64,000 nucleotides of DNA, from assembly GCA_011037195.1 (NCBI GenBank), contig JAAEAF010001059.1, forward strand, positions 124,001-188,000, given 5' to 3'. Origin of the DNA: Triatoma infestans (Eukaryota > Arthropoda > Insecta > Hemiptera > Reduviidae). The translations under genes and the position numbers were made by a program. Of the stretch, positions 3,364 through 61,720 are shown in pieces (within the stretch, counting starts at the first letter, position 1; each line of letters starts with the position of its first letter). The notes beneath the pieces were generated by a model. It was given only the letters and a program-made list of their open reading frames with translations, had not been told where the DNA came from and did no database searches.

Positions 3364-4000
3364 TTTTTTTTTTTCTTGCAACGCTGATTTTTGTTGGCAT
3401 CAAATCATTCGCTGGCGAGCATTCCAATAAAGGGCAGTCAGCCACTGCACCAGGTCACTGAATTTTGAATTGTATTCATCGCGAGCATCTTTGAGTGAAG
3501 AACATTCCAACAGATGCTCGCTCGTCATCTCCGAATAGGGATCGTTACATAAAGGGCATATGGAGCTGTCCATGAGCCCCCAAACGAGGCAAAGGCTTCT
3601 GCAAGTAGTCCTGACCAGTCAACATTCGAAAGTTAGCCACCCCGACTCCTCTGGGCAGGTCCGGCTGGATTCGACCTTTTGGCATCGAAAGGGCACGTAC
3701 CTTTTATCCTGGACGGCTTCTGATCTCTCCCGTATTGATTGGTGACTAAATTTAGTGCGTATAAGGCACTTAGCTGTTTCAAGAGAAACATCTAAGTCAG
3801 GTTGAGGGAGCAATAAACCTTTCTTTGCCAATTCATTGGCCCTCTCGTTTCCACTCACTCCATAGTGGCTTGCCACCCACTGAAAGACCAACTCATGCCC
3901 TGACGATTGAAGGAGCCTGCTGATTTGTAGTAGGTGCAGCCACAATACACGAACAGCCACTGAGGCACAGTCGCTGGAACTAGTCACCGTAATGAAGACG
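3364..4000 (-). mobile_element. 5'-truncated RNase H-type LINE inside the mariner
   Basis: A minus-strand non-LTR retrotransposon tail. Its oligo(A) tail appears as a T run at 3361-3374. It is flanked by GGTCTTGAATTT at 3352-3363 and again at 4001-4012, a 12-bp target-site duplication cut from the transposase. Coding content: the end of an RNase H domain (WVASHYGVSGNERANELAKK) and then, after a frameshift, a Cys-Cys-His-Cys finger (CPLCNDP...HLLEC) and a terminal W-N-A-R-Q-R-M. It is 5' truncated within RNase H. The same family appears at 55.4 kb. Confidence 0.92.
3619..4000 (-). pseudogene. LINE RNase H domain fragment
   Basis: Carries the last RNase H blocks, including WVASHYGVSGNERANELA; the family's final catalytic Asp is replaced by Asn (ERAN instead of ERAD). 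The open frame runs across the insertion junction into the mariner, so its apparent N-terminus is not genuine LINE protein. A frameshift near 3610-3630 separates it from the Cys-His finger. Confidence 0.85.
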
Positions 4001-4726
4001 GGTCTTGAATTTCTTTCGAGTGGGAGAACCCGTATGCTTCCACTCAAGGCTTTTCGCTTAGACTCCCACTCAAAATAGTGTATCCCTGTTTCATCACGTG
4101 TTACAATTCTTCTGAAAAATTCTTTTCAATTAAACATCGTTCTTTCACTGTTGACGTATTATTTGAAATCTGATTTCTTTATGGGAGTCCATGAAGTTGT
4201 CTTGGAACCTATCTCGCACAAGTTTTCTTGTCCTGCAGCTTATTCTGAATATTGGTATGGACAGTTCCAACAATTGCGTGCACTTTTTCAGCTATCAGTT
4301 CATCCGTAATACGCTTGTCCTTAATTAACGCGTTAATGCGAGGGAGGAAGTTGCGACTTCAACCGGTCGTCCACTTCGTTGCACGTCACAGACACTTACA
4401 CGGCCATTTTAAAATGTTCTATTCATTTGTAAACGTTCGAACGGTTCAAAGAATTATTCCCCTACACTTTCCACATTCTTTCGTGGATTTTACTACGTTT
4501 GATACCCTCTTCAACTAAAAATCTCATCACTGAACGTTGTTCTTCTGAGGTGCAATGCTCGAGCAGAATCGCCATTATTAACTGAATACATTTGAGGTTA
4601 TGCTTACCAAATATTTTCGAACAGCTGATGAAAAACTAAGTACAAGGATGCCAACTTTGTATTGATTAAACAAACCATTTCTGAGCTACAGCAATTTGTC
4701 TCGTTACTTATTGAATGACCTTCGTA

Positions 4727-7430: not shown

Positions 7431-8240
7431 ATGCTGCATTTTTTAAAATATATATCAAAAGTCTGTTTGTATAGTGATAATAGATTGCCAAAGGTAGTGG
7501 GTACTTTAATGGCACAACGGAAGCTCTTTTGGTTTAAGGAATGGCTTGATTTAGCCATTAATGGCTTGAATTGTATCATAGAGAACTCCTTTAGTTCTCT
7601 AGAATACTGCATTAAACAGATAGAGAAACTTCTAGAAACTATAAAGGCAAACGCGACCAACGAATTTCTATTAAAAGTGCAGGACGCTCAGTACCACCTA
7701 TATACAAAGAACTATTGCCAGTAAAGTATCCCTATATCAATGATGAAAATAATGCAGACATTATAAGAATAGTTTTTAAAATAAGGGGGGGACTTACTGA
7801 ATTTAAATTATAATGCTTGGGATCCTGATAGCATTCATATCTGTTCCCTATGCAATAGAAATGAGATAGAGGACACCATTCACTTTAGGGCAATATGTCC
7901 TATATTAGAATCTATTAGAAGAAGGTACTTCGGAAAGGACGTAATCTCAAAAGGAGAACTAGTTAGTTTGATGATAGCTGAAAATATAAAACCAATGTAT
8001 AATTATGCAAAGCTTTAGAATATAGGAAAGCGAAAATGGAAAATATAATTTAATTTATTTTTCTTTTATTTTGTTTTTGTTATTTTATTTTTGTCTTTTA
8101 TATTATAATTACCACGCCAAACTCCTGGCAGACGGCTGTTGTATTCAGCCATTGCTGTAATGTTTTATGTTTGTATCTGTAAAGTTTTGTAAGTTTATAT
8201 TTTTTATAATAAAGCAAAATATTCATTCATTCATTCATCA
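7431..8240 (+). mobile_element. LINE C-terminal fragment with (ATTC)n tail
   Basis: The frame at 7431-7724 reads as the region upstream of a LINE Cys-His finger. After a frameshift the reading continues KYPYINDENNADIIRI and HICSLCNRNEIEDTIHFRAICP, a clear CxxC-H-C finger typical of LINE ORF2 C-termini, then RRRYFGKD. The 3' end carries ATTCATTCATTCATTC at 8220-8237, a simple-repeat tail rather than poly(A). 5' truncated and frameshifted; not active. Confidence 0.82.
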
Positions 8241-8322
8241 TATGAAGAAGACTTAACAAATTAATAAAACAATTAAGATGCTTCAGAGACATTTTCCGTG
8301 GTAGCCTGCTTCATTTTGTGGT

Positions 8323-8360
8323 TATCGACCGGTTTCGGGCGTTCGCCCATCTTCAGGATG
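8323..8360 (-). ncRNA. Hammerhead ribozyme-like motif, A1 left arm
   Basis: Minus strand: stem I CATC, core CTGAAGA, extra T, hairpin GGGC-GAAC-GCCC, GAAA, palindromic stem III (A-CC/GG-T), cleavage base C, then GATA completing three pairs of stem I. All invariant core positions are present. The extra base after A9 is non-canonical. Confidence 0.6.
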
Positions 8361-8558
8361 CGTTCTTCAGACAGTGTGCCAACACAGACTCGTACAGAGA
8401 CTTAGTTTCACACTAACTGAGGTGTTTTTTAAATACTACTTTTTACTTACTTAAACTTACTTACTTACTTAAATACTACTGAGTATTTAAAAAACACCTC
8501 AGTTAGTGTGAAACTAAGTCTCTGTACGAGTCTGTGTTGGCACACTGTCTGAAAAACG

Positions 8559-8596
8559 CATCCTGAAGATGGGCGAACGCCCGAAACCGGTCGATG
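8559..8596 (+). ncRNA. Hammerhead ribozyme-like motif, A1 right arm
   Basis: CATC (stem I 5' strand), CTGAAGA (8563-8569), one extra T, hairpin GGGC-GAAC-GCCC (8571-8582), GAAA (8583-8586), CCGGTC with predicted cleavage after C8592, then GATG (8593-8596) pairing perfectly with CATC. Stem III is only 3 bp and palindromic, as in retroelement hammerheads that work best as dimers. Activity is inferred, not shown. Confidence 0.65.
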
Positions 8597-8683
8597 ACCA
8601 CAAAATGAAGCAGGCTACCACGGAAAATGTCTCTGATGCTTTCCAGCTCTGCGGAACCAACCACCACAACAAATTAAGATGCT

Positions 8684-9689
8684 CTTTATTATGAATTTAA
8701 AATGACCGTTGAATTTCCACTTTTCAAAAAATAAAAATAAAAAAAGATACATTAAGTAAAATAACGTTTAAAAAACAAAAACAAAAATACATATAACCAA
8801 AGGCATAATTAATTACAACAAAATAATCTTAAGTGCAGAAACATTAAATTTTATTGATAGTCATAAATACAAATCACATACTTAACAAAAATAATTATTG
8901 ACTAAAATCAATTAATACCTAAGTTGAAGGAATGGTAAACATAATTAAATAGAAACTTTCGGAAACACCTTGAAACAGAAATTTTTACTTTATAATATTG
9001 TTAAATATCATTGCAAAGAAAGGATAGAAAAAGTATAAATGGATAAGTCCAAAGGACTGACCTTTTGTATTTGAGGGTTAAACAGGGAAGTTATAAAATG
9101 GTAAAAAGGGAAAACTGGTAAAGAAATGTATGCTTCAACTCTATTTTTTTTTTTTGTAATATTTCTACAAAAAAACAAAACATATTTTTTATCATAAAAA
9201 ACAAATAAATTCAAAGAAAAAGGAAAAAAAAATGGCGATACTAAAAATAAATAAACAAAAACGAAATAAAGAGTTAAAGAATCAATGTGATGTATTTGTG
9301 GGAAATAAGAACAAAATATATAATATATATAGTTCAATATATATATATATATATATAGTATAATATATATATTGTACGTATGGAAAATATAGATCAAACC
9401 CTGTATCTTTTTGGTCAGTTTTGTAAAGCAACCCTAGTTTCCTTTCTGCCCTCAATAATTCACCATTGTCCCTTTTCTTACCATAAATTAGGACCTTTCC
9501 ACTGTTTTTCCATTTGGTTACAAATAAATATTCTCACTATAACCGCTTTTACAAATATATTTGGTTGAAAAAGGTTTTATTTAAGTATCTTGTTTCAAAC
9601 ACGAATATTTTGCAGAATAAATTCAAGATTATTTATTTAGTTTCTCAATAAATTCTTAGCAATAGGAATAATGTTGAAAATGGATTTTG
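8684..9689. other. AT-rich spacer
   Basis: Very AT-rich with a TA repeat at about 9320-9371. The ORF at 9008-9397 is low-complexity (Tyr/Ile/Phe-rich) and overlaps the TA repeat; I do not consider it a gene. Confidence 0.55.
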
Positions 9690-9727: not shown

Positions 9728-9764
9728 ACCGACGTTTCGGCAAATTTATTACCTTCTTCAGGGT
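9728..9764 (-). ncRNA. Hammerhead-like motif in the Penelope-like terminal region
   Basis: Minus strand: ACC, CTGAAGA, extra A, stem II GGT...GCC with an AT-rich loop, GAAA, CGTC (cleavage base C), GGT. Stem I has three G-C/A-U pairs. Hammerhead motifs in Penelope-like terminal repeats are established knowledge; the assignment here is from the visible core. Confidence 0.65.
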
Positions 9765-10219
9765 CTGTACAAAGGTTGAAATACATATCAAAAATAGGAC
9801 CAACAGAAAATATGAACTTAAACTAAATATTTCCAGAATAAAAATTTAAACTAAACAATATAAAATAAACTAATTACAAAATATGATATATATAGAGTAC
9901 AATTAAATTTATTTTAAATTATTGTAGGCAGATCAATATTAAACTAAATCGCAACTATTAATTAATACTAATAGAAAAATAAACATAAAAAAATATAAAA
10001 TATATATATATATATATGTGTGTGGCATATATGAGTACAGTATGAAAATAAATTAGGAAATGTACTTACAAAAATTTTTTAGTGAGAATTCCAGTAGTAA
10101 TTAATAATCTAGTATAACCTGTGACATATCATCACCAAGTGTTACGGACATTGGATGGGTCAAGGTTTATAAAGGGCTAGGAGAGGGGATGGGAAAACCG
10201 TGTCTTAGTCTGTATGTCG

Positions 10220-10600
10220 TTTTGGAAATTCCAGGAGATTGTTATAGCTGAGGGATAGGTTTTTGGTGTCTGTTCTAAAATTAATAGAAAATTTATCTTT
10301 TTTAATATAAATCATTTCCAATATATTTCTTTTTTTATTATTATTATTGATGGAGAGAATTTTGGTGTTTTCTATGTCAAATTCGTGTTTGTATTGTATG
10401 CAGTGTTTCGTTAGTGCTGTAGTCGTGTCAGTCGGTTTTTTAGTTTTACAGTCGTATTTATGTTGGTACAGTCTATTTTTTAAATATTGAGATGTTTGTC
10501 CTATGTACGTACCTGCGCATTGTAAACAATTTATTTTATAAATTATATCTGATAATAAAGTTGTGGGTGTGGGGTCTTTTAGTTTAGTGGGGTCAATCCT
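10220..10600 (-). pseudogene. GIY-YIG endonuclease domain of a Penelope-like element
   Basis: Reading the minus strand from about 10555 gives DIIYKINCLQCAGTYIGQTS, followed by LKNRLYQHKYDC, KKPTDTTALTKHC and EFDIENTKIL. The GTYIGQT block with its preceding CxxC pair and following R...H motif is the Penelope-type GIY-YIG nuclease signature. The frame continues to a stop near 10218. No start is present because the upstream reverse transcriptase has been lost. Confidence 0.88.
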
Positions 10601-10846: not shown

Positions 10847-11935
10847 GTTGAATATTAAATTTATTTCTGCGACAGCATTAAATTGGTTCTTGAATATAAT
10901 GAATATAAAAAAAGATCTGGTGTGAAACACTCACACGACTTTCTCTTACTCCTGTTAACATAGTTACATAGTCTCTAGTTTTTCGAACTCTAATATATAA
11001 CGCTTCTTCTTAATCTAATTTATTCTTACCAAAAATCATCAACGGTCAACAGATACTTTTATATAATTTTTATTCTGAAAGATCTATTGTGCCCCCCCCC
11101 AGCCTTCTCAATGCAATGCTGCCCCTCCCCAAGCAGTGGTCTCTAGCTGCAGACCACGCTGCTCTTCACCAGACAGTGAATTGTAGAGGTTGAATATTAA
11201 ATTTATTTCTGCGACAGCATTAAATTGGTTCTTAACTTAAATGAATATAAAAAAAGATCTGGTGTGAAACACTCACACGACTTTCTCTTACTCCTGTTAA
11301 CATAGTTACATAGTCTCTAGTTTTTCGAACTCTAATATATAACGCTTCTTCTTAATCTAATTTATTCTTACCAAAAATCATCAACGGTCAACAGATACTT
11401 TTATATAATTTTTATTCTGAAAGATCTATTGTGCCCCCCCCCAGCCTTCTCAATGCAATGCTGCCCCTCCCCAAGCAGTGGTCTCTAGCTGCAGACCACG
11501 CTGCTCTTCACCAGACAGTGAATTGTAGAGGTTGAATATTAAATTTATTTCTGCGACAGCATTAAATTGGTTCTTAACTTAAATGAATATAAAAAAAGAT
11601 CTGGTGTGAAACACTCACACGACTTTCTCTTACTCCTGTTAACATAGTTACATAGTCTGTAGTTTTTCGAACTCTAATATATAACGCTTCTTCTTAATCT
11701 AATTTATTCTTACCAAAAATCATCAACGGTCAACAGATACTTTTATATAATTTTTCATTTCTTTAATTGCACTAATAATTGTAGATTGTTGTAGGGGATT
11801 ATCACACTGCGACCTGAAAGATCTATTGTGCCCCCCCCCCCCGGAGCCTTCTCAGTGCAATGCTGCCCCTCACCAAGCAGTGGTCTCTAGCTGCAGACCA
11901 CGCTGCTCTTCACCAGACAGTGAATTGTAGAGGCA
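10847..11935. repeat. Three tandem copies of a 342-bp unit
   Basis: The block GTTGAATATTAAATTTATTT starts at 10847, 11189 and 11531, a period of 342 bp. Each unit contains the family C terminus (TCTGGTGTGAAACACTCACAC), a C homopolymer, and a palindromic block CTCTAGCTGCAGACCACGC. Units 1 and 2 are nearly identical. Unit 3 has about 60 extra bases (from about 11757 to 11813) and runs into a SINE-1-like sequence. Confidence 0.9.
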
Positions 11936-13760: not shown

Positions 13761-13860
13761 CTATCTGTGAGTTTATCCGTCGGAGCATGCATATTAATGA
13801 TACCTTACTCTCATGGTGGATGAAAATCCGAAACTGGTCAGGAACAACAATAATATGTAC
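13761..13860 (+). repeat. Decayed family B foldback fragment
   Basis: TTTATCCGTCGGAGCATGCATATTA followed by GGATGAAAATCCGAAACTGGTC matches blocks of family B, but the ribozyme core is degraded (CTCATGG instead of CTGACGA) and the arms are not both present. The overlapping ORF at 13787-14014 starts inside this fragment and is unlikely to be a gene. Confidence 0.6.
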
Positions 13861-14384
13861 GCTTCTCCTAATGCATGGCTCAGATCTTTTCTCGTTGGAT
13901 ATGCCCGAAAAAATCTTTGCCTATGTAATGTTATTAGTGATGTTTGATGTGAGTATAGGTAGCTTGTGGCGTGAGCGTTTTAGCGAAAAGGGCTTGTATG
14001 TTTGCTTGAGATAGAATGTAAGAATAATTAAGATGTCACCACTGTTATATAAATAATTGTATTCTGTTAAAATAATAACTACAACTTATTTGATATTATA
14101 AACTTATTTAATTTATTGTGAAACTGGTACAGATATTTAGAGAGCGATTCCTGAAGTAGCGTTTCGATGTTTCCACCTTGATTGGTAGCACAAGTGTGTC
14201 TTTAAAAATATTTCTTCTCTTTGTTTCTTCAATTCCTCTCCTGTGAGAAGAAGGAGTAATACAATGGCAGTAATTGTTCTTGTACCGTACCAGTAACTGG
14301 ACTTGTCCTTTTGCAAGAGTATGTCACATATTTTGATAATTTAGATTTATTTAAAAATTAATATATTTATATGTTTCTTGCATC

Positions 14385-22205: not shown

Positions 22206-23000
22206 TCTGGTATTTTATCCCGTCGTAGCCTGCATATTAATTTTGTTATTGACCAATTCGGATTTTCATCCATCGTCAGAGCAAATTCACCAAGTTCGTG
22301 TAGAGAATTCATTTCAACGTAATGTTTCTGTTATACTCACACTTGTTGGTTTGTTGATTGTATGTATGTGCGGGAGGTTATAAGGTTATGTTACTATGTG
22401 TGTCTGTGTTTAATGACAAAATGGAATTATAATGATTAGACATTAGAAAATAGTGTACAATCATAAATAGCATGTTTTGAAGGATAAGTAAATTTTCATA
22501 GTGTTGTTAAGTATGTTCAGTGTTTTATCAAGTCATTTTTATTAGTCGGGGGGGAGGATAAGTTATTTCAGGAGTACTATATTAGGAATAGATAAAGTTT
22601 GAAAAAAAGGTCATTCAAAGTTCATGGTCAGTCAAAAGCTTGTGCAAGTAATAAATAATGTGAAATGTAAGCAGGGTTAATGCAAGAAAATAATATGTAA
22701 GTACATTGATATGTAAGAAGCTTGGCAGCAAACAGCATATTGGAGATGATATTAAAATAAATAATAGTGGTAATCAATTGTATTCGTTTTTATTTATCAT
22801 GCTTGTTTTTAAATGATATTAATTTATGATTAAATTACTTTAAGAATATGTTGAAAGAGATGTGGTAGTATTCGTTAAGGTATTTTTAATATCAGGGACA
22901 TTTTCCGTGCCCGACTAAATTGTATTTCAGTCGGGAATATGGTACGACGGATAAAATACCAGATGTTATCCAGCATTGCGGACCCATCCACATTTTCAAT
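22206..23000 (+). mobile_element. Foldback B, long form with internal body
   Basis: The left arm starts TCTGGTATTTTATCC and contains a minus-strand hammerhead-like motif at 22246-22285 with GAAA changed to GAAT. The right arm ends GATGTTATCCAGCATTGCGGACCCATCCACATTTTC. Between the arms lies a body of roughly 450 bp that recurs inverted at 36.67-37.10 kb. The right arm has lost the ribozyme core and instead carries a perfect hairpin, CCCGACT...AGTCGGG (22905-22930). I see no convincing target-site duplication. Confidence 0.8.
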
Positions 23001-27063: not shown

Positions 27064-27240
27064 TTTTTTTTTTCAACTTCGTGTACTGTCCTCCTTCATT
27101 ACTCTTTGCCATTCTTCTTTCTCATAGGCAAGTCTTCACCATCACCTCACTCTGAGTGTTTGGAGGACTTCCTCCAAATCGTGCAGCCATCTTTTACGTG
27201 GGCGTCTTCTATTTCTACGTCCTCCTGGATGCTTTTTGTC
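27064..27240 (-). mobile_element. RTE/endonuclease-RT-type LINE tail
   Basis: Minus strand reads RRNRRRPRKRWLHDLEEVLQ, then WRRLAYEKEEWQRVM. The R-R-x-R-P-R-x-R-W-x-D-D/L and later L-A-x-x-R/K-x-x-W pattern is the common C-terminal tail of RTE-like LINEs. It ends in a T run (poly(A) on the minus strand) at about 27065-27076. Confidence 0.7.
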
Positions 27241-27425
27241 AAAACAGTGTGATAACCTAGATTTGTTCTGTGCAAACTATGTTATCACAACACTGTTGGA
27301 CAAAAAGCATATTGATGATGGGCGAACGCCCGAAACCGGGACGATGACCACAAAAAAGTAGCAGGCTATCACGGAAAATATCTCTGATGCTTTTCAGCTC
27401 TGCGGAATCAACCACAACGTACATT
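27222..27425 (+). mobile_element. Foldback element A6, partial
   Basis: A short left arm (GGATGCTTTTTGTCAAAACAGTG) and a full right arm ending CTGCGGAATCAACCACAAC. The right-arm ribozyme core is altered at C3 (TTGATGA instead of CTGATGA), so it is probably inactive. The stem II hairpin GGGC-GAAC-GCCC and GAAA are intact. Confidence 0.75.
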
Positions 27426-29814: not shown

Positions 29815-29965
29815 TTCCATGGCCATTTTCCTCAAAAAACACTTGAGATTCGGGATGAAACCGCGTTTGTTATAAACCGACGTTCCGCCGTTATTGCAAT
29901 GAGCCTCTTCAGAATCGTTTCACCTTGTAAGCCTGAAGAAGCTCAATATTGGCGAAACTCGTGTT
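29815..29965. repeat. Inverted pair of Penelope-like terminal fragments
   Basis: Minus strand near 29875-29922 reads CTGAAGAGGCTCATTG...CGGCGGAACGTCGG. Plus strand near 29935-29970 reads CTGAAGAAGCTCAATATTGGCGAAACTCG. Both resemble degraded hammerhead-like motifs and face each other. The flank CTCAAAAAACACTTGAGATTCGGGATGA also occurs at 31.11 kb next to the second Penelope-like element. Confidence 0.5.
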
Positions 29966-34851: not shown

Positions 34852-35200
34852 TTTAACATGTGGATGGGTCCGCAAATCTGGTATTTTATCCGTCGAAGCA
34901 TGCATATTTATAGTTTTCCTGACCGGTTTCGGATTTTCATCCATTGTCAGAGCAAATTCACCAAAAGTTCGTGTAGAGAGTTTACTTCAACTTAATGTTT
35001 CTGTTACACTCACACTTGTTGGTTGTATATATTTGTTGGTACCTTATAACCTCCCCACATAAATATATACAACCAACAGGTGTGAATGTAACAGAAACAT
35101 TAAATTGAAATGACTACTCTCTACACGAACTTTTGGTGAATTTGCTCTGACGATGGGTGAAAATCCGAAACCGGTCGATGACCATAAAAAGAAGCAGGCT
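34852..35200 (+). mobile_element. Foldback A/B hybrid between the duplicated units
   Basis: The left arm is family B (ATGTGGATGGGTCCGC...TATTTTATCCGTCG). The right arm begins as B but ends as family A (GGTCGATGACCATAAAAAGAAGCAGGC). Right-arm core: CTGACGA, T, GGGT-GAAA-ATCC, GAAA, CCGGTC. Stem I would join a B 5' strand to an A 3' strand and does not pair. The left core has G8 changed to A (CTGACAA). Confidence 0.78.
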
Positions 35201-35654
35201 ACCATTGAGGCAGGTTTATTAATTTTCTCAGCACGAAGGAGTCATGGGGTTCGAATCTCTCTCTCTCTCTCTCTCTGTCCGGTCTGAGTAAACTTTTCTT
35301 CAGAAACAATTGGCTGTTACTCTTACAGCAGTTGATGCTCAAAAAAACACGCGGAAGTCCTGGGTTCTAGTTTAGCAGTGCTGCCCTTACATTGTTTCGC
35401 CTATGAGATCGGCACTTCACTGAGAAGTCTCCGGGCGCCAATGACCATATAGATCAGTGATGGCGAACCTATGACACGCGAGCTCATTTTTGGTGACACG
35501 CATCTTCAAAGATAAAAAATTTCATAATTCAAAAAAATCTTTTTTTTCTGATAATGTAGCTCATATAGTTAGCAACTCTCTCTGTTTACTACATATTTTG
35601 TGTTTAGTTTGTTTTATGGAAATTATAAATACCGATTAACATTTTTTTTAATTT

Positions 35655-35754: not shown

Positions 35755-35940
35755 TTGCTAACAATTTTTTCATCCACATATTTTTGTGAGACATTGTTCT
35801 CAGCATTAAATAATATTAAGACAAACAAACGGAATCGGTTAACAGATGAAGTCAGTGGCGCTTGCTTGGCCTTGAAATGTACCAAGTATATACCCGAAAT
35901 AGAAGATTTAGCAGACAATCCTCAGCACCAAAAAAAGTCA
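35755..35940 (+). pseudogene. hAT transposase C-terminal (dimerisation) fragment
   Basis: Reads YFCETLFSALNNIKTNKRNR followed by LTDEVSGACLALKCTKYIPEIEDLA, the conserved hAT C-terminal block (C-E-x-x-F-S-x-x-x-x-I-K...R-x-R-L-T-D-E). The frame enters foldback A2 after 35940. The zinc-finger BED domain and catalytic core are absent. Confidence 0.88.
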
Positions 35941-35980
35941 TCAGAGACATTTTCCGCGGTAGCCTGCTTCATTTTGTAGT

Positions 35981-36018
35981 CATCGACCGGTTTCGGGCGT
36001 TCGCCCATCTTCAGGATG
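35981..36018 (-). ncRNA. Hammerhead-like motif, A2 left arm
   Basis: Minus strand: CATC, CTGAAGA, T, GGGC-GAAC-GCCC, GAAA, CCGGTC, GATG. All core positions intact and stem I is a perfect 4-bp match. Confidence 0.63.
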
Positions 36019-36124
36019 CGTTTTTCAGACAGTGTGACAACACCGACATGCACAGAGCAAACTTAGTTTTCACACTCAAGTTTGCTCTGTACAAGTCTGT
36101 GTTGTTCGCACTGTCTGAAAAACG

Positions 36125-36162
36125 CATCCTGAAGATGGGCGAACGACCGAAACTGGTCGATG
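36125..36162 (+). ncRNA. Hammerhead-like motif, A2 right arm
   Basis: CATC, CTGAAGA, T, GGGC-GAAC-GACC (one stem II mismatch), GAAA, CTGGTC, GATG. Core intact; predicted cleavage after C36158. Confidence 0.58.
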
Positions 36163-36671
36163 ACTACAAAATGAAGCAGGCTACCACGGAAAATGTCTCT
36201 GATGCTTTCCAGCTCTGCTGAACCAACCACCACACACCAAAAAAGTCACTAATTTTTCATATATATTTATTTTCTAATTATATAAATTTATATTGTTTTT
36301 CTGTTTTTGTTCAATTATATTTTATATATATATTACTTGATTTTGTATGTTAAGTGTCAATGAAATATGTAAGACAAGTCTCTAAATGTAAACTATTGGT
36401 TTCATAATTTTGGCTTTTGTATTTTAAATGGCATTAAACAAATAATTAACTTGATGAATGACACGCCACGAGAATTATGTTTCTATTTTTCAAAATTTTG
36501 ACACACCGAGCTCAAAAGGTTCGCCATCACTGATATAGATGTTGACGCGCCTTCAAAGAAAAAATAAACCACTGACACGATCTTAACCCATAAATCTAAG
36601 TGTTTTTTTGAAGCAGGCAACTACTCACCTCTATCCATCAGGTGTCGTAGACGGGATCGGAAGTACATAGG

Positions 36672-37277
36672 TATATGATAAATAAAAACGAATACATTTG
36701 ATTTCCTCTAATATTTATTTTAACTCTTCTCCAATTTGCCGTTTGCTGCCAACCTTCTTACATATCAATTTACTTAATAATTTCCTGTATTTAACCCTGC
36801 TTGTATTTCACATTTATGTATTACTTGTACAAGCTTTTGGACTGTCCATTAACTTTGCATTGCCTTTCTTCAAACTTTATCTATTCCTATTAGTACAGTA
36901 TACTCCTGAAATAACTTATCCCCCCCCTAATAAAAATAACTGATAAGACACTGAGCATACTTTACAACACTATTAAAAATTTAGTTATGGAGTATTCTGC
37001 AAAACAGTAAACAAATTTATTATACACTATTTTTCTAATGTCTAATCATAACTTACAATAATTCCATTTTGCCATTAATCACATACACATAGTAACATAA
37101 CCTTATAATCACCCCACATAATTATATACAACCAACAAGTGTGAGTAACAAGTAACAGAAACATTACGTTGTAGTGAACTCTTTACACGAACTTTTGGTG
37201 AATTTGCTCTGACGATGGATGAAAATCCGAAACCGGTCAGGAAGAAAATAAATATGCATGCTAAGACGGATAAATAC
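36672..37277 (-). mobile_element. Foldback B, long form, inverted copy
   Basis: The body at 36672-37100 is the reverse complement of the 22.37-22.80 kb body (for example ATGATAAATAAAAACGAATAC against GTATTCGTTTTTATTTATCAT). It is followed by one arm with a plus-strand hammerhead-like motif at 37203-37243, ending GACGGATAAATACCAG. The other arm is missing. Confidence 0.8.
37203..37243 (+). ncRNA. Hammerhead-like motif, family B, intact core
   Basis: TTTGCT, CTGACGA, T, GGAT-GAAA-ATCC (stem II closed by a GNRA loop), GAAA, CCGGTC, AGGAA. Stem I: U-A, C-G, G-G mismatch, U-A, U-A. Predicted cleavage after C37238. Confidence 0.63.
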
Positions 37278-37291
37278 CAGCCATAGATATA

Positions 37292-37706
37292 TGTTGAATA
37301 TGTGGATGGGTCCGCAATGCTGGATAACATCTGGTATTTTATCCGTCGTAGCATGCATATTTGTAGTTTTCCTGACCGCTTTCGGATTTTCATCCATCGT
37401 CAGAGCAAATTCACCAAAAGTTCGTGTAGAGAGTTCACTTCTCAATTTAATGATTCTGTTACACTCAAACTTGTTGGTTGTATATATTTGTGGGTATCTT
37501 ATAACCTCCCCACATATATACAACCAACAAGTGTGAATGTAACAGAAACATTAAATTGAAGTGACTACTCTCTACACGAACTTTTGGTGAATTTGCTGTG
37601 ACGATGGATGAAAATCCGAAACCGGTCGTTTGACCATAAAAAGAAGCAGGCTATCACGGAAAGAATCTGTAAAGCTTTCCAGCTCTGCAGAACCAAACCA
37701 CAACTT
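37292..37706. mobile_element. Foldback B/A hybrid
   Basis: The left arm is a full B arm (GAATATGTGGATGGGTCCGC...). The right arm runs from B sequence into a full A end (GAAGCAGGCTATCACGG...CTCTGCAGAACCAAACCAC). The left core has a stem III change (GAAAGCGGTC) and the right core has C3 changed to G, so neither looks functional. The short ORFs of 60-119 codons around here are translations of the arms, not genes. Confidence 0.78.
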
Positions 37707-38235: not shown

Positions 38236-38780
38236 TATTTTTAAGTATAAATCAATGAGAACATAAAGGAAAGTTTGAAACATACACTAATATTGGAATA
38301 ATATTCAATTACTTTACAATTTATTTTCTTTTGCGTAAAATTATGCCAGTTTACAATTTCTATTAATTCATTCATTCTTTTTTTTTTTTTTAATTTCATA
38401 ACGGTAAACTTGAACAGAATTTCATTCAATTAATAAAAATTTCACTGCTATGAATTTTGTTTTCTGGTCTTCATTATACTACAGAATAATGAGTTTAATC
38501 AAACCGAGTTCACTTCCTTTTCTCGAACAGTTTAATGAGTAGTATGGCATAATAGAATATCAATACTAGGAATCGTAGATTCACCAAATTCTTCCAATTA
38601 TGTAATGAGAAATTGAAATGGTTCGCGAATCGTGCATCATAGAATTAATATTAAATTTTGTGATCAAATATTTACCAATGGGCCACTGTTGATAATTTTT
38701 TAAACAAATTATTCAAAGACATTAGCACTTAAGAAGATACATAGCCAAGTAACGCTTTTGCTATCAGATATATTTTTTCC
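38236..38780. other. AT-rich spacer
   Basis: No recognised feature. Confidence 0.5.
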
Positions 38781-38781
38781 A

Positions 38782-38996
38782 AGATAGGGTGCTTCTTTTT
38801 GTGGTCATCGACCGGTTTGGAGAGTCCGCCCATTATCAGGATGTTTTTGTTAAAACAGTTCAGTATGATAGCAGCTTTATCAAAACATCCTGATGATGAG
38901 CGAACGTCCGAAACTGGTCGAGGACCACAAAAAGAAGCAGGCTATCACGGAAAATATCTCTCATGCTTTCTGGCTCTGCGGAACCAACCACAACAA
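38782..38996 (+). mobile_element. Foldback element A5
   Basis: The left arm is truncated (starts AGATAGGGTGCTTCTTTTTG), the centre is near 38862, and the right arm is full, ending TGCGGAACCAACCACAACAAC. The left-arm core is decayed (CTGATAA, GAAA lost). The right-arm core is intact (separate entry). Confidence 0.82.
38885..38922 (+). ncRNA. Hammerhead-like motif, A5 right arm
   Basis: CATC, CTGATGA, T, GAGC-GAAC-GTCC (weakened stem II), GAAA, CTGGTC, GAGG. Core positions intact; stem I has three pairs. Confidence 0.5.
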
Positions 38997-38999
38997 CTC

Positions 39000-42519: not shown

Positions 42520-42870
42520 TGTTTAATGAGTCCGCAATGCTGGATAACATTTGGTATTTTATCCGTCGTACGTAGCATGCGTATCCATTTGGTCCCTCTG
42601 ACCGGTTTAGGATTTTCATCCATCATCAGAATATATTCACCAATTTTGTGTAGAGAGTTCACTTCAACGTAATGTTTCAGTTGTACTCACACTTGTTGGT
42701 TTTTACTAACTTTAATCAAGAGACACTTAACCAACAAGGATGAGTGTAACAGAAACATTACGTTGAAGTGAATTCTCTACATGAACTTGGTGAATTTGTT
42801 GTTATGGTGGTTGGTTCCGCAGAGCTGGAAAGCATCAGAGACATTTTCCGTGATAACCTGCTTTTGAGCT
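42520..42870. mobile_element. Foldback B with an adjoining A arm
   Basis: Left B arm (GAGTCCGCAATGCTGGATAACATTTGG...), centre near 42710, right arm B up to GGTGAATTTGTTG, then an A end (GGTGGTTGGTTCCGCAGAGCTGGAAAGCATCAGAGACATTTTCCG). The left ribozyme core is intact at CTGATGA but GAAA is changed to TAAA. The right core is missing at the junction. Confidence 0.72.
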
Positions 42871-43470: not shown

Positions 43471-43585
43471 AATACAGACATACCTATCATAAAATAAAAG
43501 CTTGATAAATCTATAAACATTATATACATACTCTGAAATTTCGTCACAAACACTGAGCACCACCAACACCCACACACCCAAACTG

Positions 43586-43820
43586 TTCTTTTTGTGTCAT
43601 CGTACCGGTTTGGGCGTTCGAACATCATCAGGCTGTTTTGTTAAACAGTGTAATGACATAGACTTGCACAGAGCAAATATAGTTGATACACAAATATCTA
43701 TATCGATATCAACTGTATTTGCTCTGTGCAAATCTATGTTATTACACTGTTTAACAAAAACATCCTGATGATGGGTCGATGACCACAAAAAAAAGCAGGT
43801 TATAATGGAAAATGTCTCTG
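43586..43820. mobile_element. Foldback element A7 with core deletion
   Basis: Inverted arms around a TATC-rich centre near 43697. In the right arm the ribozyme is cut out internally: CATCCTGATGATGGG joins directly to TCGATGACC. The left core is decayed. Ends AAAATGTCTCTG, where a family B fragment begins. Confidence 0.75.
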
Positions 43821-43907
43821 TAGGTGAATTTGCTCTGACGATGGATGAAAATCCGAAACCGGTTAGGAACCAAATGAATATGCATGCTACGACGGATAAA
43901 ATAACAG
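43821..43907 (+). repeat. Family B arm fragment
   Basis: A single B arm, GGTGAATTTGCTCTGACGATGG to TGCATGCTACGACGGATAAAATAACAG, with an intact hammerhead-like core at 43830-43869. Confidence 0.78.
43830..43869 (+). ncRNA. Hammerhead-like motif, family B fragment
   Basis: TTTGCT, CTGACGA, T, GGAT-GAAA-ATCC, GAAA, CCGGT with cleavage base T (allowed H17), AGGAA. Core intact. Confidence 0.58.
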
Positions 43908-44182: not shown

Positions 44183-44444
44183 GTTGTTGTTGTGATTGGT
44201 TCCACAGAGCTGGGAAGCAACAGAGACATTTTCCGTGATAGCCTGCTTCTTTTTGTGGTCATCGACCGGTTTCGGACGTTCGCCCATCTTCAGGATACGT
44301 TTGTCAAACAGTGTGATTTCACAGACTTGCACAGAGAAAAAATGTGTGTAAACTGAATTTATTCTGTATTATCACACTGTGTGACAAACGCATCCTAAAG
44401 ACCACAAAAAGAAGCAGGCTATCACGGTAAAATGTCTCTGATGA
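44183..44444 (-). mobile_element. Foldback element A3
   Basis: Full left arm (GTTGTTGTGATTGGTTCCACAGAGCTGGG...) and short right arm ending AAAATGTCTCTGATGA. Flanked by AGTTTTTGTACA at 44171-44182 and 44445-44456, a perfect 12-bp duplication. The right arm lacks the ribozyme core (GCATCCTAAAG joined to ACCACAAAAAG). Confidence 0.87.
44260..44297 (-). ncRNA. Hammerhead-like motif, A3 left arm
   Basis: Minus strand: TATC, CTGAAGA, T, GGGC-GAAC-GTCC (G-U pair), GAAA, CCGGTC, GATG. Core intact; stem I has a terminal U-G pair. Confidence 0.6.
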
Positions 44445-44456
44445 AGTTTTTGTACA

Positions 44457-44870
44457 CCTGTAAATTTAGTAGAATAAAACTAAGAATCATCGTGTTGAAT
44501 CTGAACGATTTCAGTAACTCTTCCAAGCCTCCCTGGGATTTAACAAGTTACATCCCTTATTTGGTGAAAATATATATCTGATTTTGCATATATTATAGCC
44601 TGATTTTTTTTTTCTTTTTATTTTTTATTTCTGTCCAGTTTTTCTATATTCATGCATCATCGGAGATTGGTTTGACCAAACAATGCTTGTCTATCACTTT
44701 CACCAACTTTTGTTTAAATCACACAGCATAGTGATTGATTATTTAGAAGCGGTAGAATATTCTGAAAGTGGTAGATATGCGTCTGGAAAGATTTGTTCAG
44801 AAGTGTACTATTCTTCGAAAGTTTGTACTATTCATCTATTTCTTTATGCCAACTTTTCTTAATTTGTTGA
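44457..44870. other. AT-rich spacer
   Basis: Nothing recognised. Confidence 0.5.
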
Positions 44871-44871
44871 A

Positions 44872-45262
44872 TATATGGATGGGTCCACAACATCGGGTTT
44901 TTTTATCCATCGTAGCAAGCATATTTCTTGTATTCCTAACCGGTTTCGGATTTTCATCCAGCGTCAGAGCAAATTTATCAAGTTTGTGCAAAAGAGTTCA
45001 CTTCAACGCAATGTTTCTATTATCATATATAACCATCCCATATATGTTATCATATAAAATGTTATATCATATATAACCTCCCACACACACACACACGCAT
45101 ACGATCAACAAACCAAGAAGTGTCGATTGGAACAGAAAAATTACGTTGAAGTGAACTCTTTTGCACAAACTTGATAAATTTGCTCTGATGCTGGATGAAA
45201 ATCCGAAACCGGTTAGGAATACAAGAAATATGCATGCTCTACGATAGATAAAATACCAGATA
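44872..45262 (-). mobile_element. Foldback B with A9-to-C change in both cores
   Basis: Left arm full (GAATATATGGATGGGTCCAC), right arm short, ending ATAGATAAAATACCAGA. The centre is TA-rich plus a (CA)n run near 45083-45098. Both hammerhead-like cores read CTGANGC instead of CTGANGA (left CTGACGC, right CTGATGC), with GAAA and GGTT kept. No clear target-site duplication. Confidence 0.8.
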
Positions 45263-46370
45263 TTTTCATGATTTATTGAATTACTTATAATCATTTCTTT
45301 TATATTTTCGGAATAATTCCATGCATAAAAGTTTCTTAATCATAGCTAGCAATTAGTTAATTACTTATTAGTTTATAAGTTTATGGAACTAAAATAAAAT
45401 TCCAAAACATTTTTGGGTGCTTTTTTTGATAATGCCGGAAACATTCCTTGTTATAACACAGGAAAATGTATATTAATAATTTTTTAATTCCACAATTCAT
45501 GCACCTTTAATTAAATTATTTATCCGGTAAAACAATAGTTTCAGGGCATAAATACGATGATTGACGTATATCCTATTAAATTCTTCAATAGTAAACTTAT
45601 TTAATTTTTCAGCATACATAATCATGAAAAAATGGGCCACTAATAAAATAATAAAAGTGTTAATAAATCAATAATAATGATCACTAAAGTGATGAGGGTC
45701 GTGAACTTTGATAGAATTATTGGGTCATGATAAAGGTTAAGGACATACATTGTGGATCCGCTTTATACAGCTCTAATAATATATATTCTTCAATTTTTAA
45801 CATTACTTACAGATTTTTTTTTTATTTTCTATTTATTTTATTTATCTTTCTGAGAAACAATAAATTGTCTACAGTTTATGTTTATTTTACATTATGCATC
45901 GCTATTTACGCTAGGATAAAAATGTTGTAAATAATTTTTAGTATTTTATTGAAGGTAATTTAATATCAATTTCTCAAATTTTTCAAATACAATACATTTT
46001 TCTCAAAATTGTTATAAAATTTTAATTTTAAACGGTTATGGAGTAATTACAATGTTTTATTTATTTTTTTCTTTTTTGTATTTTGAAAGGTGCATAATAT
46101 CAATGGTCCTTTGCACGTGAACTATATTAAATAGACACTTTACCTTTTAATAAACACTCTGTATTATTGGAACAAAAAAGAAAGAAAACAATCTAACGAA
46201 ATAGATAAAATATTAACCTTTTTATTTCAATTCAACTATGCTCTACTCTTTTAATTTTGCTTGATTAGTTTGGCAGCTTAAAAACTAATTGATCATCAGT
46301 ACAGTTAGACATATTTCCTTATCATTCTTATCATCTATATTCTAATCGTGTATTGTTTACATTTATCCTG
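45263..46370. other. AT-rich spacer
   Basis: A fragment near 46084-46130 (TTTTGAAAGGTGCATAATATCAATGGTCC) resembles 12.13-12.17 kb and may be a LINE 3' UTR remnant. Otherwise nothing recognised. Confidence 0.45.
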
Positions 46371-47245: not shown

Positions 47246-47254
47246 TACAAAATT

Positions 47255-47570
47255 GAATATATGGATGGGTCCGCAATGTTGGGATAACATCTGTTATTTT
47301 ATCCGCCGTTGCATGCATATTCATTTGGATCCTAACCGATCGTCAGAGCAAATTCACCAAGTTCGTGTAGAGAGTTCACTTTAACGTAATTTTTCTTGTT
47401 ACACTCATAACATACAACCAACAAGTGTTGAGTGTAACAGAAACATATATACGTTGAAGTGAACTCTCTACACAAACTTAGTGAATTTGCAAATGACGAT
47501 GGATGAAAATCCGAAACCGGAACAGGAACCAAATGAATATGCATACTAAGACGGATAAAATACCAGATTT
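47255..47570 (-). mobile_element. Foldback B
   Basis: Left full arm (GAATATATGGATGGGTCCGCAATGTTGGG), right arm ending GACGGATAAAATACCAG. The left core is deleted (CCTAACCGATCGTCAGAGC); the right core has C3 lost (AATGACGATGGAT). Flanks TACAAAATT (left) and TACAAAATT (right) fit a short duplication. Confidence 0.8.
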
Positions 47571-47795
47571 ACAAAATTATTGTAGAAACAGTGTTTGCTA
47601 ATTATTTATCAAACAGAGAGTAGTGTAATGGTTTTTTACATTCCAGTTCATGTAATTACCTGAACGAAAGTATAAAAATACTTAATTAACGTGTTGAATA
47701 CTTAATTAACGTGTTGAATATTAAATTTTTTTTTACAACCGCATTAAATTGATACTTAATTTATATGAATATAAACAAATATGATTTCTTTTATT
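47571..47795. repeat. Spacer related to the tandem 342-bp unit
   Basis: ACGTGTTGAATATTAAATTTTTTTTTACAACCGCATTAAATTGATACTTAATTTATATGAATATAAA is a diverged form of the start of the 342-bp unit at 10.85 kb; a TACTTAATTAACGTGTTGAA segment is locally duplicated. Confidence 0.55.
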
Positions 47796-51138: not shown

Positions 51139-52022
51139 TTATTATTATCATCAAAACGGGTGCCCAAAAGGCGCGGGACCTAAGCCTATGTGGCCCTGAT
51201 ACCCGCCGTAACCCCTTAATTAATTTCCCCCGGTAACTTGCCGGTTAATCTGCAATATCTCAAGACATCCGTAAACTCCAACTCGCCCAGGCAATCCTGC
51301 AAGAGTGGTGTCCTCCCAAATATACGAAACCTAGTTCCGGCGAAACGGGGACACTGACGTATAGTGATACACCGTTTCCCCCGTCATCACAATTCTGACA
51401 AATGGGACTCCGCGTCCTCCCTATGTTAAACAAGTGACCGGACACCCAAGTGTGTCCAGACACTATTCCTACCAAGGTCCTCAAACCCGTCCTACTAAGA
51501 GACAGGAGATACTCCGAGATTCCCTGCTTGCTTGCCTTTATAAATCTTTTGGCTTGGAGGCACCCTGCGTGTCCCCCCAGCGTTTCTCCAAAGCTCTCGT
51601 CTCCCAAAGTCTAATCTGTTTGTCGCGAAACGTCTTTGTAACGGCCAGGGCTGGTTCAGGACCATAAAATGGTAATGACGATCCCTCCCTGGCCAGCCGA
51701 TCCGCCCTCTCATTGCCCTCTATTCCCGCATGTCCGGGTATCCAATAGAGATGCACCTTACCCCTCCGAGCCAAAGCGTTAAGCCTTCTCCTACATTCTC
51801 CCACTAATTTCGAACTCCACCAAGGCTTACTCAAAGCCCTTAGTGCGGCTTGACTATCGGAGAAGATTCGCACTTCCTTAAACTCTCCTAGCCACTCCCC
51901 CACAAGGTGGCAGCATTCAATGATGCCCACCACCTCAGACTGGAAAACATGGCCAAACCACCCAAGGCCACCGAACTCCCTCTATCCAACTCCTGAAAAC
52001 CATGCTCCCGCCCCCGACAGGC
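51139..52022 (-). mobile_element. RNase H-bearing LINE with (TAA)n tail inside SINE-3
   Basis: Flanked by CACCGGACTTA at 51128-51138 and 52023-52033. The 3' end on the minus strand is GATGATAATAATAATAA, a TAA-repeat tail as in I-type elements. Coding content is the RNase H domain and, after a frameshift, a zinc-finger tail (SPICQNC, then H and C in another frame). 5' truncated at the start of RNase H. Confidence 0.9.
51538..51933 (-). pseudogene. LINE RNase H domain
   Basis: A 131-codon frame with IFSDSQAALRAL (catalytic Asp) and YWIPGHAGIEGNERADRLAREG (last catalytic Asp in ERAD). The first Asp and the Glu lie upstream, where the copy is truncated or out of frame (FQSEVVGI just before the start). 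A frameshift near 51540 separates the Cys-finger tail. Confidence 0.85.
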
Positions 52023-55429: not shown

Positions 55430-55569
55430 ATTGAGTTTTCATGGAAAATGTAAGTCTTAAGATCATGAAGTAGATTGCACTCCACACCATTGCCGAGCGA
55501 TATCCAAGATGTAAATGGCTTCACATTTATATTGATGGATCAGCTAACCCTAAAGGAGAATCAGGAGCG

Positions 55570-56061
55570 GTGGTTTATTCGGAGCTGTTCCAATTATCAG
55601 TAGCAGCGGGTGAACTCTCCACAAACTACGACGCTGAGATCCTAGCAGTAAAGCTGGCACTGGATAAGCTTAGAACTGTAGATGTAAATGCCGGCAAGCT
55701 AGTGATTTTCATCGACTCGCGAGCTACTATAGCATCCCTGGTGTCACCCGCTTCTCCAGAGTCAGCAGTGTTGCTAGCTGCAAAGCTAAGCGCATCCCAG
55801 CTGATTAGAGAAGGATTGGTGCTGACGTACCAATGGGTACCCAGTCATTGTGTGATTGAGGGGAACGAGAAGGCAGACTCTCTGGCGAAGAACGGAGCAA
55901 AAATGAGCCAACCGCATAATCCTCTAAGCTTCAAAACAGTGTGCTCTTACTTGAGAAAAAATAAAAAAAAGCAATGTTCGAAGAGAGCACCAATCCATAG
56001 CCGAAGGGAAAACTTGGGCGAAGCTGATGGAACAGCCGCTACCGCATTACTTGCCACGTAA
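55570..56061 (+). pseudogene. LINE RNase H domain, all catalytic residues present
   Basis: Just upstream of the Met the same frame reads HIYIDGSANPKGESGA (first Asp). Inside: YDAEILAVKLAL (Glu), VIFIDSRATIASL (second Asp), YQWVPSHCVIEGNEKADSLA (last Asp). This is the best preserved RNase H in the window. After KKKQCSK the frame is wrong because of an indel in the AAATAAAAAAAAG run, and the true continuation is the next entry. Confidence 0.88.
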
Positions 56062-61076: not shown

Positions 61077-61088
61077 GTTATGAAATTG

Positions 61089-61708
61089 TTGTGATTGGTT
61101 CCGCAGAGCTAGAAAGCATCAGTGACATTTTTCGTGATAGCCTGCTTCTTTTTGTTGTCATCGACCAGTTTCGGGCGTTCGCCCATCGTCAGGATGTTTT
61201 TGTCAAACAGTGTAATAACACAGAGCAAATACAGTTTATCAACTAGTATTGTGTATCAACTGTATTTGCTCTGGGTAATAGGATCCAAAGAAAGAATCCG
61301 TAGCAGAGAAAGAGAGGCAAAAATCACAGGACCACTCTCTCTGACCAGAGTGGGAGAAACTACATAAATACAGCGACGGGAAATAGATATAGAACACAGT
61401 TCATACAACTGAGGTTATTCGACAGTCACAACGTGTCATTACCCTTTACCTCTCTATCATTACCATACTCTACCATTGTAAGTGTAAAGTCCAGGCAGTC
61501 AGTGTCACTTCTTATATTATACAGTGTTAGCCATATTTTGTTTTTTCATTCAAATCAGACCATTTCTCTCCTTCAACAACCCCATTATACTCTGTACAAG
61601 TCTGTGTTATTACACTGTTTGACAAAAACATCCTGATGATGGGCGAACGCCCCGAAACCGTTCGATGACCACAAAAAGAAGCAGGCTATCACGGAAAATG
61701 TCTCTGAT
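61089..61708 (-). mobile_element. Foldback element A4 with unique central insert
   Basis: Full left arm (TTGTGATTGGTTCCGCAGAGC...), right arm ending AAAATGTCTCTGAT, flanked by GTTATGAAATTG at 61077-61088 and 61709-61720, a perfect 12-bp duplication. The centre (about 61275-61590) is unique sequence, so this is a longer form of the family. The left core is intact; the right core has an extra C in stem II and a broken stem III. Confidence 0.88.
61159..61196 (-). ncRNA. Hammerhead-like motif, A4 left arm
   Basis: Minus strand: CATC, CTGACGA, T, GGGC-GAAC-GCCC, GAAA, CTGGTC, GATG. Core intact, stem I a perfect 4-bp match, stem III with one G-U pair. Confidence 0.62.
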
Positions 61709-61720
61709 GTTATGAAATTG

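Follow-up and report, generated by a model that had tools for sequence, protein, structure and literature searches.

Foldback elements of Triatoma infestans as probable head-to-head pairs of Penelope-like pLTRs carrying a hammerhead-like motif

Penelope-like elements (PLEs) typically have inverted pLTRs arranged head to head, a tail at one end and, where a target duplication is present, one of 8-10 bp (PMC3846280). Minimal type I hammerheads occur within their pLTRs (PMC7761336, PMC11167929), and minimal PLE-type motifs without any stem III have been reported (PMC7761336). In the typical Penelope element of Adineta vaga, the head-to-head inverted pLTR is shorter by 37 bp, a 31-bp tail lies at one end and palindromes occur at the junctions; the pLTRs include the first 12 codons, or 22 with the tail, and duplications measure 8-10 bp in the cases given, with two elements said to have none (PMC3846280). 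The RNA of the Poseidon element of Anolis carolinensis (PAc) contains CUGAGGA-U-GCC...GGC-GAAA-CGUC-AGG; the start codon is marked at this place, and the cut lies 26 nt beyond it. Cleavage by the hammerhead required the presence of protein and was abolished by single mutations in the core. Synthesis of PAc cDNA begins within an AC-rich stem-loop, 111-118 nt into the frame, where two start points delimit a tail of 30-40 nt; cutting and extension affect both strands of the target (PMC11167929). Dimers of minimal hammerheads are said to require direct tandem copies (PMC6466107).

We analyzed 64,000 nucleotides of the Triatoma infestans genome (hereafter, the window), in which a foldback of 389 nt, A1, is flanked by a target-site duplication (Table 1). 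Self-comparison placed its inverted arms at 8280-8454 and 8465-8639, limits that include three bases of the duplication; the arms are 94% complementary and are separated by a 10-nt spacer, and the last 33-35 nt are present at the right end only. An earlier note on this DNA had described an inverted repeat with one hammerhead-like core per arm, on opposite strands, and this description was borne out: at 8563 (+) and 8356 (-) both arms read CTGAAGA-T-GGGC-GAAC-GCCC-GAAA-CCGGTC, followed by a short stem I. No frame with a telomerase-like reverse transcriptase and a GIY-YIG endonuclease lies within the 389 nt of A1, so that A1 is at most a non-autonomous PLE derivative.

We interpret the foldback as two head-to-head copies of a PLE pLTR without the enzyme-coding part, each made up of the 5' leader, the hammerhead motif and 23-34 codons from the start of the frame, and assign this reading a probability of roughly 0.78. 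A1 is most likely such a pair, since PLEs typically combine inverted head-to-head pLTRs with a single terminal tail. The elements show the terminal structure expected of the group, namely head-to-head pLTRs, one arm shorter by the tail, an AC-rich tail about 100 nt into the frame and a short, variable duplication. The earlier note had proposed a non-autonomous, ribozyme-motif-bearing, inverted element related to Penelope-type hammerheads, and this part of its reading is supported. Its further suggestion of an undescribed class is not, given the typical PLE organization and the hammerheads of PLE pLTRs (PMC3846280, PMC7761336, PMC11167929).

Among described systems, the Penelope elements of A. 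vaga (Pen2a_Av and its relatives) share the inverted pLTR in head-to-head arrangement with one of the arms some 35 nt shorter, the tail at one end, a frame start inside the pLTR, a palindromic junction and a short variable target duplication. In A. vaga, however, the pairs are very low in copy number and lie on either side of, or next to, a coding unit (full or truncated) or captured sequence, whereas the window holds 12 pairs without a coding part in 64 kb, with the first 23 and 34 codons in their arms; the word hammerhead does not occur in the main text of the A. vaga paper (PMC3846280). PAc resembles the present elements in having the extra U of the hammerhead in a start codon, an AC-rich internal start about 100 nt after the ATG and two start points bounding a tail, but the published account describes a direct tandem arrangement, the start of the protein is dissimilar by eye, and inverted pLTRs do not come up in the accessible text (PMC11167929). 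Minimal type I PLE hammerheads (Cervera and de la Pena 2014; Lunse 2017, as cited in PMC7761336 and PMC6466107) likewise lack stem III or have a short palindrome in its place; they are reported in tandem and can act as dimers, whereas the copies here are inverted. Metazoan non-LTR retrozymes (PMC7229834) are similar in being small and non-coding, with a type I hammerhead, low GC and target duplications longer than 4 bp. They differ in consisting of direct tandem monomers with canonical hammerheads, and the accessible text on them describes no inverted arms, frame start or tail. A1 was rejected as a retrozyme, a class with direct tandem hammerhead repeats: its arms are inverted, and no direct tandem copy occurs in 8000-9000.

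Table 1 Coordinates of the foldback A1, related copies and a neighboring remnant in the window
Feature	Position	Strand	Remarks
A1 head-to-head pLTR pair	8283..8671	+	389 nt; most likely identity
A1 left arm	8283-8454	antisense	proximal end
A1 right arm	8465-8671	sense	distal end
Target-site duplication AATTAAGATGCT, left copy of A1	8271..8282		12 bp
Target-site duplication AATTAAGATGCT, right copy of A1	8672..8683		12 bp
Hammerhead-like module, A1 right arm	8555..8600	+	predicted cleavage after 8592
Hammerhead-like module, A1 left arm	8319..8364	-	
Putative start of PLE reading frame in A1	8569..8670	+	ATG inside motif, 34 open codons, by eye MGERPKPVDDHKMKQATTENVSDAFQLCGTNHHN
AC-rich tail of A1, between proximal and distal end points	8639..8671	+	right end only
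A2 pair	35939..36234	+	proximal/distal ends; 10-bp duplication
A3 pair	38763..38997	+	proximal/distal ends; duplication unclear (6 bp, not above cross pairs)
A4 pair	44185..44443	-	proximal/distal ends; 10-bp duplication; left arm without most of motif
A5 pair	61086..61709	-	proximal/distal ends; 13-bp duplication; about 316 nt extra inside left arm
A7 pair	27227..27418	+	left arm truncated (-5), right end distal
A10 pair	43583..43820	+	nonstandard left end (+45); proximal right end that adjoins B43
A8, 5'-truncated A unit	42797..42864	-	distal end
C35 mosaic foldback	34852..35204	+	left arm B (distal); right arm B upstream and A downstream of motif (end +52)
C37, second copy of C35 mosaic foldback	37294..37704	+	distal ends both sides
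B37a, single B arm, longer 5' part	37019..37280	+	proximal end; contains motif 37203
B42 pair	42526..42798	-	nonstandard ends (+92, -8)
B43, 5'-truncated B unit downstream of A10	43826..43905	+	contains motif 43830
B45 pair	44867..45267	.	left distal, right proximal
B47 pair	47253..47571	.	left distal, right proximal; 9-bp duplication
B22, single B arm, longer 5' part	22206..22461	-	proximal end
B229, fragment with B tail	22939..22999	+	distal end
B13, decayed B module (13805-13863) with short antisense piece (13763-13795)	13763..13863	+	counted as single
Separate remnant, putative PLE	10205..10597	-	frame homologous to GIY-YIG proteins; motif of another family

Families A and B and the mosaic family C were defined by self-comparison and by reading the copies. 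With arm limits set by hand, the window contains 30 arms, comprising 12 head-to-head pairs (A1-A5, A7, A10, C35, C37, B42, B45 and B47) and six single arms or fragments (A8, B37a, B22, B229, B43 and B13). B13 is perhaps the remnant of a pair. The extra stretch in the left arm of A5 (61274-61589, unrelated sequence) has CAGAG on either side and looks like a later nested insertion. At 43820-43826, the proximal end of the A10 right arm abuts the 5'-truncated B unit B43, an arrangement like a template-jump partial tandem.

Measured from the ATG, the outer ends of the arms fall at +99..+104 (distal) in 13 of 30 cases and at +67..+75 (proximal) in 10, with seven ends elsewhere (A7L, A10L, C35R, B42R, B42L, B43 and B13). 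The distal ends are capped where the known consensus stops, but past that limit the flanks vary between copies. By eye, the match of B43 stops near +67, and this end may be proximal too. The two classes lie 30-35 nt apart, bound the AC-rich tail and occupy matching frame positions in both families. With uniformly placed ends, no 10-nt bin received 10 of the 17 non-distal ends in any of 20,000 trials. All left arms of A1-A5 are proximal and all right arms distal, B45 and B47 also have one end of each class, and C37 has two distal ends; overall, seven pairs combine a proximal and a distal end, one has two distal ends and four have a nonstandard end. We rejected the coupling of one distal with one proximal end as evidence, as seven of the eight pairs with two standard ends is not significant (0.09). 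The outer ends of the foldback likely mark two internal sites where Penelope reverse transcriptase starts copying.

Target duplications were tested in nine pairs, that is, all except A10, C35 and B42. Five of them (A1, A2, A4, A5 and B47) have duplications of 9-13 bp, while the stretch shared between junctions reached at most 6 bp in 72 cross pairs. In A3, B45, C37 and A7 the shared stretches were 6, 5, 6 and 4 bp, not above the cross pairs.

The hammerhead-like motif consists of CTGANGA, one T, stem II, GAAA, a short palindrome, TC and stem I. A loose form, CTGANGA...GAAAC...GT, gave 14 matches at 13 places in the window, 11 in arms of A, B or C, against 0.40 expected; none of 100 shuffles reached 14. 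The earlier note had read at least nine intact cores, and those in both arms of A1 and A2 and at 38890, 44265 (-), 61164 (-), 37203 and 43830 are present, but some are imperfect; its numbering of A3-A5 corresponds to ours with some uncertainty. The pairing stem I that it described in the A1 and A2 arms has one mismatch in the A1 left arm (CATC/GATA). In the A2 right arm, where a stem II and a palindromic stem III had been claimed, stem II has a mismatch (GGGC/GACC) and stem III (ACTGGT) is non-palindromic. An isolated hammerhead-like match, CTGAAGAAGCTC...GGCGAAACTCGTGT, lies outside the A and B arms at 29933-29964 (+).

Covariance-model searches had been suggested as a check. The Rfam hammerhead models had no match at gathering score in the whole window and, at E up to 1 in 8200-8750, were not among the eight matches to six models obtained there. 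Those eight matches, to microRNA precursor models throughout, fit the long hairpin as such and fall below the gathering score, and we rejected A1 as a microRNA precursor. Our own model, built from 18 modules, found 25 in the window with E below 0.02, of which 18 are its training rows.

We then analyzed the stems on the 18 gap-free modules, a set from which at least seven modules with indels were left out. Of 162 cells, 90.1% were paired, against 22-41% in slid controls, and none of 500 shuffles equalled the paired percentage or the covariation score. Five pairs changed on both sides, a number equalled in 57 of 500 shuffles, and the number of pair types was equalled in all 500; one stem I pair was unpaired in 9 of 18 rows. 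The covariation is mainly a single split, family A versus family B. Judged from the alignment, paired changes between the two families preserve stems I and II. The layout is PAc-like, including the extra U, and together with the covariation it points to a putative minimal type I hammerhead of the PLE type.

Conservation within families was distributed differently. Family A scored 0.907 in CTGANGA, 0.925 in the later reading frame, 0.902 in the tail and 0.830 upstream; the values for family B were 0.883, 0.878, 0.885 and 0.928, respectively. The stem II hairpin was the best conserved stretch in both (0.932 in A, 0.962 in B). The earlier expectation that the core would be conserved above the rest of the arm is thus not upheld for CTGANGA within families, but stem II ranks highest and the stems covary between families. 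With CTGANGA not above the rest and stem II only slightly so, we rejected core conservation as proof of ribozyme function.

In canonical hammerheads, the CTGANGA core runs directly into stem II. Here, one extra base precedes stem II, and this T, with A9 before it and the first base of stem II after it, gives an ATG. By analogy with PAc, we infer that the T belongs to a start codon. The consensus sequences of A and B are both open for 34 codons from the ATG and are identical at 70 of 103 gap-free sites, compared with a mean of 28 and a maximum of 47 in 1000 shuffles. By codon position, they differ at 9 (first), 11 (second) and 13 (third) sites, and on these counts protein-level selection was rejected as proof of coding. 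Since there is no sign of such selection, it is the parallel with PAc that suggests coding from the ATG. Neither the A nor the B frame start had a homologue in protein searches, and in the PDB the start of the frame gave one chance match (E 1.3).

Next, we considered how the motif would behave inside the foldback. The whole A1 transcript is predicted to fold into one long hairpin of -305 kcal/mol with arms paired over about 170 bp, and forcing the hammerhead fold of the right arm costs 80 kcal/mol. Each foldback transcript contains a sense and an antisense copy that should pair and therefore block the ribozyme. Thus, the A1 ribozyme, inherited from the pLTR, is predicted to be trapped in duplex by the facing arm. 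Because of the 80 kcal/mol penalty, the need for tandem copies to form dimers and the pattern of conservation, the ribozymes are probably not what the foldback works by.

About 1.5 kb from A1, a remnant at 9728-10597 (-) consists of a GIY-YIG-related frame and then a leader with a hammerhead-like motif at 9728-9761 (-), CTGAAGA-A-GGTAA...TTGCC-GAAACGTCGGT, which has one extra base after CTGANGA and no ATG. From its sequence, the remnant looks like a different PLE. Pfam gave no GIY-YIG match on the remnant frame itself, at 10.2 kb; of its seven homologues, five were scanned: two (P0004, P0005) score above the GIY-YIG cut-off, two (P0001, P0003) match below it, and P0002 has no match. No reverse transcriptase part was identified beside the remnant frame. 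A full-length PLE with the ends of the foldbacks was found neither in exact pattern scans of viral and prokaryotic contigs nor by protein searches with the frame start. Elsewhere in the window, repeats with 342-bp spacing at 11017-11722 also appear as repeated peptide blocks in three-frame translation, and frames matching RNase H at 3619-4125 (-; below the curated cut-off), 51538-51981 (-) and 55474-56061 (+) are probably LINE remnants.

For the origin of the pairs, we tentatively favor two-sided insertion, although we place it somewhat short of even odds. The enzyme of a full PLE, acting in trans, would cut both target strands, and each cut end would be extended on sense pLTR RNA, from the distal position (+99..+104, in the AC-rich tail) on one side and from the proximal position (+67..+75) on the other. 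The cDNAs would run to the 5' ends of their RNAs and be joined with the 5' leaders facing, giving a head-to-head repeat; in a full PLE, the hammerhead would process a tandem transcript. Head-to-head pLTR pairs would then be footprints in which both cut strands primed internally on sense RNA, and the foldbacks could afterwards spread as non-autonomous units. The two-strand step taken by itself seems to us about equally tentative. A point against the reading is that PAc showed no strand difference in start site (PMC11167929). No link between two-strand priming and inverted pLTRs was found in the open-licence literature.

It is also possible, if rather doubtful, that the foldbacks are mobile themselves, their whole transcript being copied by a PLE enzyme, which would make them a non-autonomous PLE family instead of pairs remade each time from single pLTR RNAs. 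C35 and C37 speak for this: their left arms match at 95%, as do their right arms, they have the mosaic make-up and central junction in common, and a single alignment spans both arms and the junction at 90% over 367 columns, stopping at the element ends, while their flanks are 62-66% identical versus 53-67% for random window pairs. These data therefore indicate a two-source foldback that was either copied as a unit or assembled on two occasions from one pair of RNAs, and two RNAs combined twice alike would look the same. Moreover, this is a single case among 12 pairs, and the arms of A1 and A10 group by element rather than by side, which fits remaking or conversion between arms.

The mosaic arms of C35 and C37 (34852-35204 and 37294-37704) switch from B to A within CCGAAACCGGTC, at +13 to +24, where the families share 12 bases. 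The 3' end of CCGAAACCGGTC in these arms coincides with the predicted hammerhead cleavage site. The switch may represent an enzyme jump between cleaved RNAs or an ordinary switch within the 12 shared bases, in either case one event present in two copies.

Self-priming, another variant within a PLE origin, in which cDNA or RNA folds back and is copied and the copy stops at the proximal site as protein covers the tail, appears unlikely. It was proposed for A. vaga Penelope from the palindromes at head-to-head junctions, but on a sense template it gives a tail-to-tail product, and an antisense template is needed for a head-to-head one (PMC3846280). The two arms of A1 (94%) and of A10 (90%) are each other's closest match, as self-priming would have it, but in A2-A5 and B47 this relation between arms is not clear. 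In C35 and C37, the arms are unlike within the element (83% and 81%) and like arms are 95% identical between elements, so that, at least in these elements, one arm was not newly copied from its partner.

Foldback- and MITE-type DNA transposons have symmetrical terminal inverted repeats and a fixed duplication length. Such a transposon would account for the inverted arms, small size, many copies and target duplications, but is very improbable given the asymmetrical ends, with the tail on one side only in A1-A5, B45 and B47 (7 of 12 pairs), the end points inside a frame at two preferred sites, the variation in duplication length and the single arms A8, B37a, B22 and B229 that end at the same sites as the pairs. 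We consider it just as improbable that the foldback is a new class whose working part is an active hammerhead on each strand, as the earlier note had proposed: either A1 strand would yield one core per transcript, the paired changes keep the stems between families and stem II is best conserved within them, but the roughly 170-bp arm pairing sets 80 kcal/mol against the ribozyme, the tandem arrangement said to be necessary for dimers of minimal hammerheads (PMC6466107) is absent, CTGANGA is no better conserved than the rest within families, and pLTR descent accounts for arms, motif, tail and ends alike.

Two features of these probable PLE pLTR pairs may be new: the many foldbacks made of pLTRs alone, with ends that agree with internal initiation on each of the two cut strands, and the occurrence of a mosaic foldback at two sites. 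The pairs also warn that a hammerhead-like core in an inverted repeat of an animal genome can be no more than the remnant of a pLTR. The available PLE literature calls the origin of inverted and partial-tandem Penelope copies unresolved. Because the two end classes match the in vitro start sites of PAc in layout, genomic foldbacks offer a direct test of two-strand priming. If two-sided priming is true, it would remove the antisense-template self-priming invoked for head-to-head pLTRs, because both cDNAs would be copied from sense RNA.
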